Shown here: one piece after another, positions 25,670 to 53,479 of the stretch | Layout: each line of letters opens with the position of its first letter | Numbering within the stretch: the stretch's first letter is position 1 | NCBI RefSeq assembly: GCF_001865995.1 | Contig: NZ_MLQQ01000001.1 | Coordinates: forward strand, 310,001-374,000 | DNA: 64,000 bases | Direction: 5' to 3' | Source: Anaerobacillus arseniciselenatis | GTDB lineage: Bacteria; Bacillota; Bacilli; Bacillales; Anaerobacillaceae | Program-made: the position numbers and the translations under genes | The notes under the pieces: generated by a model | Database searches by the model: none | What the model saw: only the letters and a program-made list of their open reading frames with translations | What the model was told of the DNA's origin: nothing

Positions 25670-25863
25670 CACGCGATACTTACCTGCGATGAACGTGGGC
25701 TTAAGATGTCTCAAACCGATGCATTGTTTACGGGAATTCAAATTGTTACTCGGACAACAAGCCAAGTAAGCTAATTGGAAGTTGAAAAAGTAACTGCGAA
25801 TACCCACCTGCTTGAGAGCGGGTTTTGAGGCACAACAAGCTACGTCAGAGCGGGGGAACAAAA
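25670..25863 (+). ncRNA. Probable 6S RNA
   Basis: About 190-nt transcript region with no good ORF. The 5' side CCTGCGATGAACGTGGGCTT pairs with the 3' side AAGCTACGTCAGAGCGGG through CCTGC/GCGGG, ACGT/ACGT and GCTT/AAGC, with internal loops, as a 6S closing stem does. Internal blocks CTCAAACCGATG and AACTGCGAA...CACCTG resemble, by eye, E. coli 6S (CCTGAGCCGAT; AACTGCGACGACACATTCACC). 6S RNA binds and sequesters the housekeeping RNA polymerase. A strong terminator follows. Strand follows the terminator. Identification is from memory of the consensus. Confidence 0.68.
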
Positions 25864-50496: not shown

Positions 50497-50640
50497 TTGA
50501 AAGAAATCAAAAAAGAAAATATTAATGTAAACGAAAAACAGCGAACTGACGAAGAACCCGACGTCAAAATCAAATACGATGTTCATACCCCTGATGAACG
50601 CGACCCCCAACCAAAATCATACGACGAAATCGAATATTAG
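50497..50640 (+). CDS. Small hydrophilic protein, 47 residues, unknown
   Basis: TTG start at 50497 with AAAGAGGTG upstream. Sequence begins MKEIKKENINVNEKQRTDEE and ends with a Pro/Asp/Tyr-rich tail DPQPKSYDEIEY. Highly charged, probably disordered. Codon use is ordinary. No family recognised. It is followed directly by a family C repeat. Confidence 0.5.
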   Translation: MKEIKKENINVNEKQRTDEEPDVKIKYDVHTPDERDPQPKSYDEIEY

Positions 50641-50800
50641 TAGAAAAGCTCAAGCACCTTGGGAGCTTCGACAAGCGTTGGAGGGCAAGCAACGTTTTGC
50701 CTCCTCATTGATTTACATCATGTATAGGCAAAATCTTGATGGACCGAAACGCTCGAGAAGCTAGGTGCTTGAGCTGGACATAGAAAAGCTCAAGCACCTT
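50641..50800 (+). repeat. Family C repeat, full copy plus start of a second
   Basis: GAAAAGCTCAAGCACCTTGG opens the repeat at 50643 and AAAAGCTCAAGCACCTTGG appears again at 50781, so a second copy begins and is cut short. Inner text matches 4809-5020. Confidence 0.72.
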
Positions 50801-50974
50801 GGTTTACCTTGTTGATCATTGTCGATTCTAATAATCATTTGACGAACTCGTACTATAAATAGGGGTTTATGACTAGTTTTAGCGAAACTGTTTAATTTTC
50901 TTGGATTTTGTTGAATAATAATGAAAGAAATAAAAGCTTGTTTCACAGCAGTTTTAAGGAGTGACCGAAAGGCA

Positions 50975-51121
50975 ATGTTAAAATTAGTCATTGAAAAAAA
51001 ACGAATGCAAATGATTTATTTAGCTAACATCACAGGACTAACTTCAAAGAAAACGGTAAAGTGTAGTCAAGAGTTAGACGATCTACTTAATTTAGTACAA
51101 AACGTCAGTCAAGCACAATAA
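50975..51121 (+). CDS. Spo0E-like sporulation regulatory peptide
   Basis: A 48-residue helical peptide with the Spo0E-family signature GLTSKKTVKCSQELDDLLN. Members dephosphorylate Spo0A~P and delay sporulation. ATG 50975 lies about 13 bases after AAGGAG; a longer frame begins at 50921. Single gene. Confidence 0.78.
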   Translation: MLKLVIEKKRMQMIYLANITGLTSKKTVKCSQELDDLLNLVQNVSQAQ

Positions 51122-51201
51122 TTTGCTGTGAATTTAGGCGCTTTCTTCTTACAAACGTTCATAAAAATTGTGACAAATTCATCAAGTTTACTATTTTATT
51201 G

Positions 51202-51230
51202 TTGATAAATAATGATTAAAAGAATATAAT
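51202..51230 (+). promoter_or_regulatory. SigA-type promoter of the riboswitch transcript
   Basis: TTGATA (51202-51207), 17-nt spacer, TATAAT (51225-51230). Predicted start near 51237, at the 5' edge of the aptamer. Confidence 0.82.
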
Positions 51231-51243
51231 TTATCTAACATAA

Positions 51244-51340
51244 ATCGTACGAAAGGGCAAAACCATTGAAAAATGGTGACGCAAAGCTACAGGGGCTTCA
51301 TTGAATAAATTTAATATGCCAGCCAGTTTCCGAACACGAA
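51244..51340 (+). promoter_or_regulatory. Cyclic-di-GMP-I (GEMM) riboswitch aptamer
   Basis: Shows the GEMM-I landmarks in order: AAAGGGCAAA, hairpin ACCATT-GAAA-AATGGT with the GNRA tetraloop, the invariant GACGCAAAGC, then a second arm ending in the receptor-like TATGCCAGC. TCGT (51244) and ACGA (about 51336) can close P1. The expression platform is the hairpin at 51341-51377. Confidence 0.85.
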
Positions 51341-51377
51341 CCTCCGTCGATTTATGTATTTTTATTATCGAAGGAGG
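51341..51377 (+). promoter_or_regulatory. SD-sequestering hairpin (expression platform)
   Basis: CCTCCGTCGAT (from about 51341) pairs with ATCGAAGGAGG (51367-51377), burying the AAGGAGG ribosome binding site of the 55-residue ORF. This implies translational control. Confidence 0.7.
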
Positions 51378-51384
51378 AAACATA

Positions 51385-51552
51385 ATGATGCAACAATTTA
51401 ATGACATGCCCAATTTTGACCTAGGTTATGAATTAATGGTCAGGCAAATGGAAGGAAACACCTTAACTGAAAACGAAATGAAACTTTTACAACATGTAAC
51501 ATCAGTTGTCGACAGTCAAATTGAAGAACTACTACAAACCATCCAAATATAA
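51385..51552 (+). CDS. 55-residue protein under cyclic-di-GMP riboswitch control
   Basis: ATG 51385, seven bases after AAGGAGG (a second ATG at 51388). An acidic, mostly helical, cytosolic protein: MMQQFNDMPNFDLGYELMVR at the start, then EGNTLTENEMKLLQHVTSVV and a final EELLQTIQI. No signal peptide or membrane helix. I do not recognise a family. It is the only gene between the riboswitch and a terminator at 51590-51624, so it must be what the riboswitch controls. A small regulator of motility, adhesion or sporulation would fit c-di-GMP biology, but this is inference. Confidence 0.72.
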   Translation: MMQQFNDMPNFDLGYELMVRQMEGNTLTENEMKLLQHVTSVVDSQIEELLQTIQI

Positions 51553-51589: not shown

Positions 51590-51624
51590 GAGACCGACTT
51601 TTGCCGGTCTCCTTTTCTTTTTTT
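51590..51624 (+). terminator. Intrinsic terminator of the riboswitch transcript
   Basis: GAGACCG and CGGTCTC arms with a long T tract (TTTTCTTTTTTT). A perfect 16-bp palindrome CTCGCCAATTGGCGAG lies just before it at 51560-51575. Confidence 0.88.
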
Positions 51625-51706: not shown

Positions 51707-53479
51707 TTAATTATTTTGTAGCGTTTGAAGAGCTCTTAACACATTAATTTCACCATATCCATAGTAAGGGTCCAAACCTTCAGGCCCTATATCATTAGCG
51801 GTTGAACGAATGATGTCAGCTACTTCATCATTTGATAATTCTGGACGTATTGAACGAATTAGCCCCGCTAAACCAGCAACATGAGGAGCAGCCATTGATG
51901 TACCGGACATCATTACGTACGAGTTATCAAGAAATGTACTCGGGATATGTTCTCCTGGAGCAGTTACCTCTATATGGTTTCCAAAATTTGAAAAAATGGC
52001 TTTATGACGCTGATTGTCAACCGCTGAAACAGCAATGACTTCATCGTAGGCTGCTGGATACATCGGAGTTTCGACATTGTCATTACCAGCTGCAGCGATT
52101 AATACAACATCATTTTTATATGCATAGCGGATCGCATCATGCATAATCCTTGAGTTAAAAGTATCACCTAAGCTCATATTAATAACTTTTGCCCCATTGT
52201 CCGTCGCCCACCGAATTCCATTTGCAACTTCAAATGCCGTACCCTCTGCATCTTCATTTAACACTTTTACAGGTAAAATTGGGTTGAACCAAGAAACTCC
52301 AGCAATCCCAATATCATTATTTGTCATTGCAGCCGTAATACCAGCAACATGCGTCCCATGACCATGTTCATCATAAAACTCACCATCGTCTTTAAATGCG
52401 TTATACCCCTTTATGATGCGTTCTTTTAAATCTTCATGCTCTGGGTCTGCACCACTATCCAATATTGCTATCGGTATATCTTCTGAACCACTAGTAATGT
52501 CCCATCCAATTTCAGCAAAAATTTGCGTCAAATTCCATTGATAAGGTTCAAAAAACTCATCATTAGGAAACTCTCCGTCTCTTCTTACAAACGGTTCCTG
52601 TTGTTGCTTTGTGTAAAAGTAATTTGGTTCTACCGCCTCTATTTCTTCCAACAAGCTTAGTTCATATACTAATTGCTCTGTTGGTCTTGTCTCATCACAA
52701 ACAACATAGTAAGGTCCTCCATTTTTGACGAGAGCTAAAGGAGAATGCTTAATCCATTCATCACCATTAACCCCATCTACGAAGCTTAATACAACTTCAT
52801 GATCTACGTAATCTGGTTCTACCTGCTTTTCTTCATCTGATGAAACTACAATTTTCCAACCTAATTCAGGGACACTTTCAACTGCACCAGCTGGTCGAAT
52901 ACCATCTCCTTCAAAATCTACATCAACCTCATCCCCGCCAATAAATAAATTTCCGTTTGCATCTGCTACATGTGCTAAATCACGTACATATTTTTTGACA
53001 AACGATAAATCAATTTCACCTACAACTTCTTTTCCCTCGTCAATTGAACAACTCATTAGCATATACTCATTTCCTGATTTCGTGTACGGATCAGAGCTTT
53101 TAATTTCTTCAAAAGAATGGACGATTTTTTCCACATCAATTTCATCCATCTCCCCAGCGATAATTTCAACTTTCCCATTATCGACTAGGGCAAATGATTC
53201 AAAATGATGGTGTTCAATTAACTCTTCGTTGAAATTTTCTAATAGTTCTTCATTTGAAAGATCTTTTTTACTCCAACGAATTAATTGATTTTTCAGCTGA
53301 TCAATAAACATTGACGTTGTATATGAAAGATCTTCTGCCATGATTTTGTCGAATGCTTGCATTTGTATCGGTGACATTTCTGTTTGACCATAATACTCTT
53401 CTTGGCCATGGTCATTTACATACCAAATTGAGATTATACCTATCAATACTATGCTAAAAAGTGTTGCTAAACGACGCAT
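51707..53479 (-). CDS. Secreted/anchored subtilisin-family serine protease with N-terminal sensor-like domain
   Basis: A 590-residue protein. Signal or anchor segment at residues 1-20 (LATLFSIVLIGIISIWYV). Residues 30-215 look like a Cache-type extracellular domain (FESFALVDNGKVEIIAG, EIDLSFVKKYVRDLAHVADA), then an inhibitor-like segment (VVLSFVDGVNGDEW...EEIEAVEPNYFY) and an S8 catalytic domain: ILDSGAD (Asp, near 340), HGTHVAG (His, near 376), GTSMAAPHVAG (Ser, near 525). It should act outside the cell. The Cache-like call is by eye only. Monocistronic. Confidence 0.85.
   Translation of the reverse strand: MRRLATLFSIVLIGIISIWYVNDHGQEEYYGQTEMSPIQMQAFDKIMAEDLSYTTSMFIDQLKNQLIRWSKKDLSNEELLENFNEELIEHHHFESFALVDNGKVEIIAGEMDEIDVEKIVHSFEEIKSSDPYTKSGNEYMLMSCSIDEGKEVVGEIDLSFVKKYVRDLAHVADANGNLFIGGDEVDVDFEGDGIRPAGAVESVPELGWKIVVSSDEEKQVEPDYVDHEVVLSFVDGVNGDEWIKHSPLALVKNGGPYYVVCDETRPTEQLVYELSLLEEIEAVEPNYFYTKQQQEPFVRRDGEFPNDEFFEPYQWNLTQIFAEIGWDITSGSEDIPIAILDSGADPEHEDLKERIIKGYNAFKDDGEFYDEHGHGTHVAGITAAMTNNDIGIAGVSWFNPILPVKVLNEDAEGTAFEVANGIRWATDNGAKVINMSLGDTFNSRIMHDAIRYAYKNDVVLIAAAGNDNVETPMYPAAYDEVIAVSAVDNQRHKAIFSNFGNHIEVTAPGEHIPSTFLDNSYVMMSGTSMAAPHVAGLAGLIRSIRPELSNDEVADIIRSTANDIGPEGLDPYYGYGEINVLRALQTLQNN

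Follow-up and report, generated by a model that had tools for sequence, protein, structure and literature searches.

Riboswitches of the c-di-GMP-I class (GEMM-I, RF01051) are the closest described counterparts of an element that we analyzed in a 64,000-nucleotide stretch of Anaerobacillus arseniciselenatis DNA (hereafter the window). In the accessible part of one report, c-di-GMP riboswitches of Bacillus methanolicus precede sinI and genes of unknown function (PMC4342826). The available portion of a survey predicts riboswitches that act in antisense, with c-di-GMP as the most enriched family, and regards small ORFs that lack orthologues and lie beside riboswitches as likely annotation errors (PMC9943018). 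A third report, again as far as its text was accessible, gives SxxxD as the signature of Spo0E-like phosphatases and describes C. difficile Spo0E as acting on sporulation, toxin and motility, with no mention of riboswitches in that part (PMC11115286).

With the c-di-GMP-I class, the window element shares the aptamer sequence and structure, the leader position and, as its platform, a mutually exclusive hairpin over the ribosome site; it differs in that its product, 55 aa long, belongs to no known family and in that three sister loci keep the aptamer without this ORF. The B. methanolicus sinI riboswitch, in the part of PMC4342826 available, is alike in that a very small regulatory gene comes directly behind the aptamer, but the 55-aa protein of the window has no SinI match. 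The antisense riboswitches, as portrayed in the accessible text of PMC9943018, resemble the ORF-less copies, which point towards the 3′ end of a convergent gene at most 500 nt away; here, in contrast, the aptamer directly follows a same-strand spo0E-like gene, its non-coding surroundings are conserved and an ORF lies behind it in two species. The orthologue-less ORFs of the same partly available survey differ from the 55-aa ORF, which has homologues and a coding pattern. The Spo0E-like phosphatases (PF09388) are represented by the upstream gene, and the 55-aa protein is likewise a short predicted helical hairpin, but it has neither a PF09388 match nor a conserved SxxxD. We regard the window element as a c-di-GMP-I leader of ordinary design that serves a small, lineage-restricted gene, and its locus is an unusual variant, the surprise being that sister species keep the aptamer without the ORF.

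The aptamer was identified by cmscan against Rfam at 51246-51334 (all features are on the + strand unless noted), with a score of 74.7 bits and an E-value of 8.2e-13; the match spans all 87 positions of the RF01051 model, and standard pairs are found at 21/21 of its mappable pairs. The score is well over the curated gathering score of 35 bits and so places the element in RF01051. The initial annotation had recognized a GEMM-I aptamer by its tetraloop and core, and the covariance model bears this out; the element has a GAAA loop and carries GACGCAAAGC as its core. By eye, the letters at positions that we provisionally take to match G20, A47 and C92 of Vc2 are G, A and C. The aptamer is predicted to bind c-di-GMP. 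The genome of the window (G000; 3.95 Mb in 58 contigs, 80% complete, with the window on contig C1) contains six c-di-GMP-I aptamers including this copy; behind the other five, genes identified by eye are of EAL type (one), chemoreceptor type (two) and Flp-pilin type (two). An ordinary feature of the window is a 6S RNA at 25678-25860 (RF00013, 84.1 bits).

Directly before the aptamer is a promoter-like site, TTGATA-17-TATAAT (51202-51230), that agrees with the consensus at 11/12 positions and is thus a good site, although not the "perfect" one initially described. A scan of the region found 3 promoter-like sites against a mean of 3.2 in shuffled sequences, so the match by itself is weak evidence; better support for a promoter here is offered by its position directly before the aptamer and by a counterpart (10/12) at the equivalent place in a sister species, G004. 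As the site ends at 51230, transcription would be expected to begin near 51237, where the helix that closes the aptamer has its 5′ strand, and the element would be expressed from there.

That helix, P0, consists of 10 standard pairs between ACATAAATCG (51238-51247) and CGATTTATGT (51348-51357), which match letter for letter. A second helix, formed by the anti-ribosome-site strand CCTCCGTCGAT (51341-51351) and ATCGAAGGAGG (51367-51377), includes the ribosome site AAGGAGG (51371-51377); minimum-energy folding of the window sequence produces this hairpin, in keeping with the earlier proposal that a hairpin buries the ribosome binding site. The two helices overlap at 51348-51351 and are mutually exclusive, because the CGAT of the P0 3′ strand is needed by both. 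When the aptamer was imposed, their computed ensemble energies were nearly equal, at -34.0 kcal/mol for the P0 state and -33.8 kcal/mol for the hairpin state, with the ribosome site 0.81 unpaired in the former and 0.17 in the latter. Because the helices exclude each other at near-equal energy and the ligand would tip the balance to P0, translation is predicted to be ON with c-di-GMP. With no ligand, CCTCC would pair with the GGAGG of the ribosome site; with c-di-GMP present, the aptamer would stabilize P0, whose 3′ strand would withdraw CGAT from the hairpin and free the ribosome site.

We consider it probable that the window element is a 5′ leader in which a c-di-GMP-I riboswitch acts on translation of the 55-aa protein; an ON switch is its likeliest mode. 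In favor of this, the aptamer, both P0 strands, the hairpin, the promoter and the ORF are all found in G004 too. Against it, the free fold of G004 (aptamer not imposed) already prefers P0 and leaves the ribosome site 0.79 unpaired with no ligand, so that the G004 copy may be leaky or always on. The promoter match taken alone, at chance level for the region, and the small number of homologues of the protein, two in the sequences searched, also weigh against it, and GGG of the aptamer pairs with part of CCTCC in the P0 fold of the window element. As a part of the anti-ribosome strand is thus paired with the aptamer in the P0 state, the ribosome site may not be accessible in that state, and c-di-GMP could turn the 55-aa gene OFF; this outcome seems quite improbable, given that the same letters serve both P0 and the ribosome-site hairpin, so that only one of them can form, and that it is the aptamer side that the ligand stabilizes. 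Kinetics instead of energies may also decide the outcome of the switch.

The 55-aa ORF (51385-51552, ATG at 51385) is followed by a terminator-like hairpin identified by a terminator scan at 51590-51611; the tiny gene would thus be terminated as first suggested, with the hairpin just beyond the segment to which the suggestion referred. An ORF encoding a protein of 75% identity lies behind the same aptamer in G004 (an 'Anaerobacillus sp.' MAG, contig SKSA01000386.1), and a homologue with 44% identity occurs in G003 at another locus of 3.1 kb that gave no Rfam match, so that the protein is present in three of the seven Anaerobacillus genomes compared (G000-G006). Differences between the G000 and G004 ORFs number 8, 3 and 13 at codon positions 1, 2 and 3, with dN of 0.13 and dS of 0.35; because this is the pattern expected of a coding gene and homologues exist, the ORF is a real gene. 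Among 397 genomes of the order, including the seven of the genus, G000, G003 and G004 alone gave convincing matches; five weak matches (G120, G136, G226, G344 and G352; E 0.004 to 0.01) were dropped, since four were segments of longer open frames (260 to 439 aa) and stops interrupted the fifth. Among 398 genomes drawn from the class, G000 alone matched at E<=0.001, with G003 and G004 not among the matches, and no match was found in plasmid and phage collections. In Pfam and NCBIfam no family came near its cut-off. The product is therefore, as the initial annotation had it, a small protein without a recognized family, and these comparisons mark the ORF as a genuine but lineage-restricted gene.

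An AlphaFold prediction, made with an alignment of two sequences, gave a helical hairpin, with its helices at 11-22 and at 29-53 and a mean pLDDT of 85. Foldseek returned nothing at E<=0.001 for this model, and in a second structural comparison (15 chains) the best Z-score was 5.5, which is in the chance range for helical hairpins; the predicted hairpin is too plain for naming a fold. SinI and Spo0E structures were absent from the chains listed, so the comparison excludes nothing. By eye, the protein had seemed akin to SinI or Spo0E; by sequence profile, it was rejected as SinI (PF08671; no match at E<=1, and 0.2% probability in a profile comparison with three SinI-like proteins) and as Spo0E-like (PF09388; no match at E<=1, and 0.8% probability against seven orthologues of the neighboring spo0E-like gene). 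The SxxxD signature is not found in it: D43 is invariant, and the residue four positions before is T, T and Y in the three homologues.

SinI-like genes do lie directly behind 3/50 c-di-GMP aptamers of the seven Anaerobacillus genomes, at L035 (G002:C1:248961-249047), L062 (G005:C8:13188-13276) and L034 (G006:C1:1893263-1893355), and in G002 and G005 the spo0E-aptamer locus is some 4 kb away. SinI exceeds the Pfam cut-off in 4/7 genomes, those without it being G000 (80% complete), G001 and G004. Other aptamers of the genus also precede small genes. By eye, a protein family of roughly 105-110 aa is found behind L037 (G003:C1:121946), L030 (G004:C110:4497) and L066 (G003:C1:2193933); the first two had been candidate orphan aptamers and were rejected as such, an ORF of about 105 aa being behind each, and at L066 a spo0E-like gene lies about 570 nt after the aptamer. 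A family of 44-52 aa with the motif LMNYNYxLYxDC is found behind L040 (G001:C8:3792), L079 (G002:C32:26632) and L070 (G005:C3:173021), with no Pfam match at E<=1 for the 2/3 members scanned. At L080 (G002:C32:50995-51083) an aptamer precedes a 41-aa protein with, by eye, a single membrane span, and at L022/L033 (G001:C45:11407-11851) two aptamers about 360 nt apart each precede a nearly identical gene of the Flp-pilin type.

In all seven genomes the locus of the window is flanked by a spo0E-like gene (50975-51121; PF09388, E 1.1e-14), which has 48 aa when read from the ATG that aligns in all seven although a longer frame in the window starts at 50921, and by a convergent S8 family protease (51707-53479, - strand; PF00082, E 1.4e-59). 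Further upstream, the window has a 47-aa ORF (50497-50640) with a conserved KIKYDV...DEIEY end that is also present in G002, G003 and G004 and for which neither Pfam nor NCBIfam gave a match at E<=1; between it and the spo0E-like gene (50642-50815), direct and inverted copies of AAGCTCAAGCACCTTGG, identified by eye, perhaps form a small repeat element. The aptamer lies between the spo0E-like gene and the protease in five genomes (G000, G002, G003, G004 and G005), and the corresponding 601-base stretches of G001 and G006 contain no c-di-GMP match or remnant even at E<=10. Only in G000 and G004 is it followed by the 55-aa ORF. After the aptamers of G002, G003 and G005 we found four frames of at least 8 codons, none of them preceded by a ribosome-site-like motif. 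These ORF-less aptamers have scores of 70.4 to 76.0 bits and share 88-89% identity, as against 36-40% at the four-fold sites of the adjacent protease gene. Their non-coding surroundings are also alike: from the spo0E stop to the aptamer, 0/300 shuffles were as good in each of the three ORF-less pairs, and from the aptamer to the terminator the figure was 0/300 for G003-G005 and G003-G002 and 251/300 for G005-G002. G000 and G004 have a promoter-like site directly before the aptamer, G002 has a weak one (9/12) and G003 and G005 have none, and among the ORF-less copies P0 appears in the fold of G003 only. An unrooted tree of the protease gene (7 taxa) separates G000 and G004 from the other genomes with full support.

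The riboswitch had initially been presented as the switch of the 55-aa protein. Conservation of the ORF behind the aptamer extends to G004, but three of the five aptamers at the locus stand without it, and the outcome named at the outset as refuting the proposal, an ORF not conserved behind the riboswitch elsewhere, is half borne out; because of this, and because the G003 homologue has no aptamer at its locus, the riboswitch is not tied to the 55-aa protein. As three sister species keep the aptamer without the ORF, the ORF was either gained by or dropped from a riboswitch with a further role, and since the tree is unrooted, gain and loss are not distinguishable. Where the ORF is lacking, the aptamer has the look of a conserved non-coding element situated at the 3′ end of the spo0E-like gene. 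Given the conservation of these aptamers and their surroundings, and the absent or weak promoter, its probable carrier is the spo0E-like mRNA, in whose 3′ UTR it would lie, or an RNA facing the protease.

What this other role may be can be read in several ways. We tentatively propose, as a possible though somewhat unlikely history, that the aptamer in origin was, and in the ORF-less species still is, a 3′-UTR c-di-GMP riboswitch of the spo0E-like gene, and that the lineage of the window added a promoter and captured the 55-aa ORF, making it an ordinary leader. The stretch directly after the spo0E stop (TTTGCTGTGAA..., 51122-51140) would pair with the region of the spo0E ribosome site, its partner by duplex calculation being TTCACAGCAG in the 5′ UTR (50942-50951), and c-di-GMP on the adjacent aptamer would alter the output of the Spo0E-like protein. 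Besides the retention of the aptamer and of the sequence leading to it in all three ORF-less pairs, and the lack of a strong promoter there, the complementarity itself favors this account in G005 (0/1000 shuffles as good) and G002 (10/1000), in which the pairing extends to the spo0E ribosome site. A compensatory change points the same way, the pair beside a shared CACAGCA/TGCTGTG core being T-A in G000 and G004 and A-T in G002, G003 and G005, although it is one evolutionary event. The complementarity taken by itself is, however, not significant in G004 (55/1000), G000 (174/1000) and G003 (185/1000); G006 gave 250/1000, computed with the stop codon set 3 nt early. It is also strong in G001 (0/1000), which uses other letters and has no aptamer, so that the 5′/3′ complementarity is independent of the aptamer. 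P0 folds in G003 but not in G005 or G002, and a helix closing the whole aptamer domain, present in the minimum-energy folds of all three ORF-less species, was dropped because it was no better than shuffles (110, 112 and 287 of 500 as good). Such complementarity (<=3 of 300 shuffles as good) appeared in no gene among 22 of the spo0E-like type taken from outside the genus, the best having 4, in a control set of which three genes (L114, L117 and L118) were read from a wrong start and nine (L112 and L124 to L131), closely related to each other, start at a doubtful TTG. A 5′/3′ contact within the spo0E-like mRNA is plausible from these patterns. Among 20 of 23 spo0E-like loci outside the genus, none had a c-di-GMP aptamer and 8 had a lysine riboswitch. 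In the aptamer-less spo0E mRNA of G001 (L054; G001:C16:7991-8365), the part of the 5′ UTR around the ribosome site pairs with a 3′ stretch that could also belong to a local hairpin.

The ORF-less copies are also compatible with the rule in the accessible text of PMC9943018 (opposite orientation to the neighboring gene within 500 nt), their aptamer ends lying 128, 178 and 260 nt from the end of the protease match in G002, G003 and G005. They could then drive an antisense RNA that opposes the convergent protease, as would suit the family most enriched in antisense orientation in that portion of the survey (152 antisense, 2,554 sense). We judge this to be very doubtful: the aptamer is separated from the protease by a terminator-like repeat, found by scan in G005 and by eye only in G002 and G003, where the scan listed none; two of the three ORF-less species have no promoter before the aptamer; and the protease is kept in the aptamer-less G001 and G006. 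Alternatively, the 55-aa gene may have been the original target, lost in the ancestor of G002, G003 and G005, with the ORF-less aptamers being leftovers of a lost leader or feeders of small RNAs. The unrooted 7-taxon tree accommodates such a loss, and G003 retains a 55-aa homologue at another locus. Leftovers would be expected to drift, yet these aptamers keep scores of 70.4 to 76.0 bits beside near-saturated four-fold sites; a plain relic is for this reason unlikely, a free small RNA being still conceivable, and the loss account as a whole appears unlikely to us. In a literature search that covered few subscription papers, we recognized no paper on a c-di-GMP riboswitch with spo0E and none combining Anaerobacillus with a riboswitch.

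As the identical site has an ORF in two species and none in three, the role of an ORF-less c-di-GMP aptamer can be asked directly at this locus. If the aptamer does belong to the 3′ UTR of the spo0E-like gene, the sporulation phosphorelay would come under the influence of c-di-GMP sensed at the far end of an mRNA, and a riboswitch that controls the preceding gene and changes its job through capture of an ORF would be new. Should that proposal fail, the window would still add a small helical-hairpin protein to the genes controlled by c-di-GMP.
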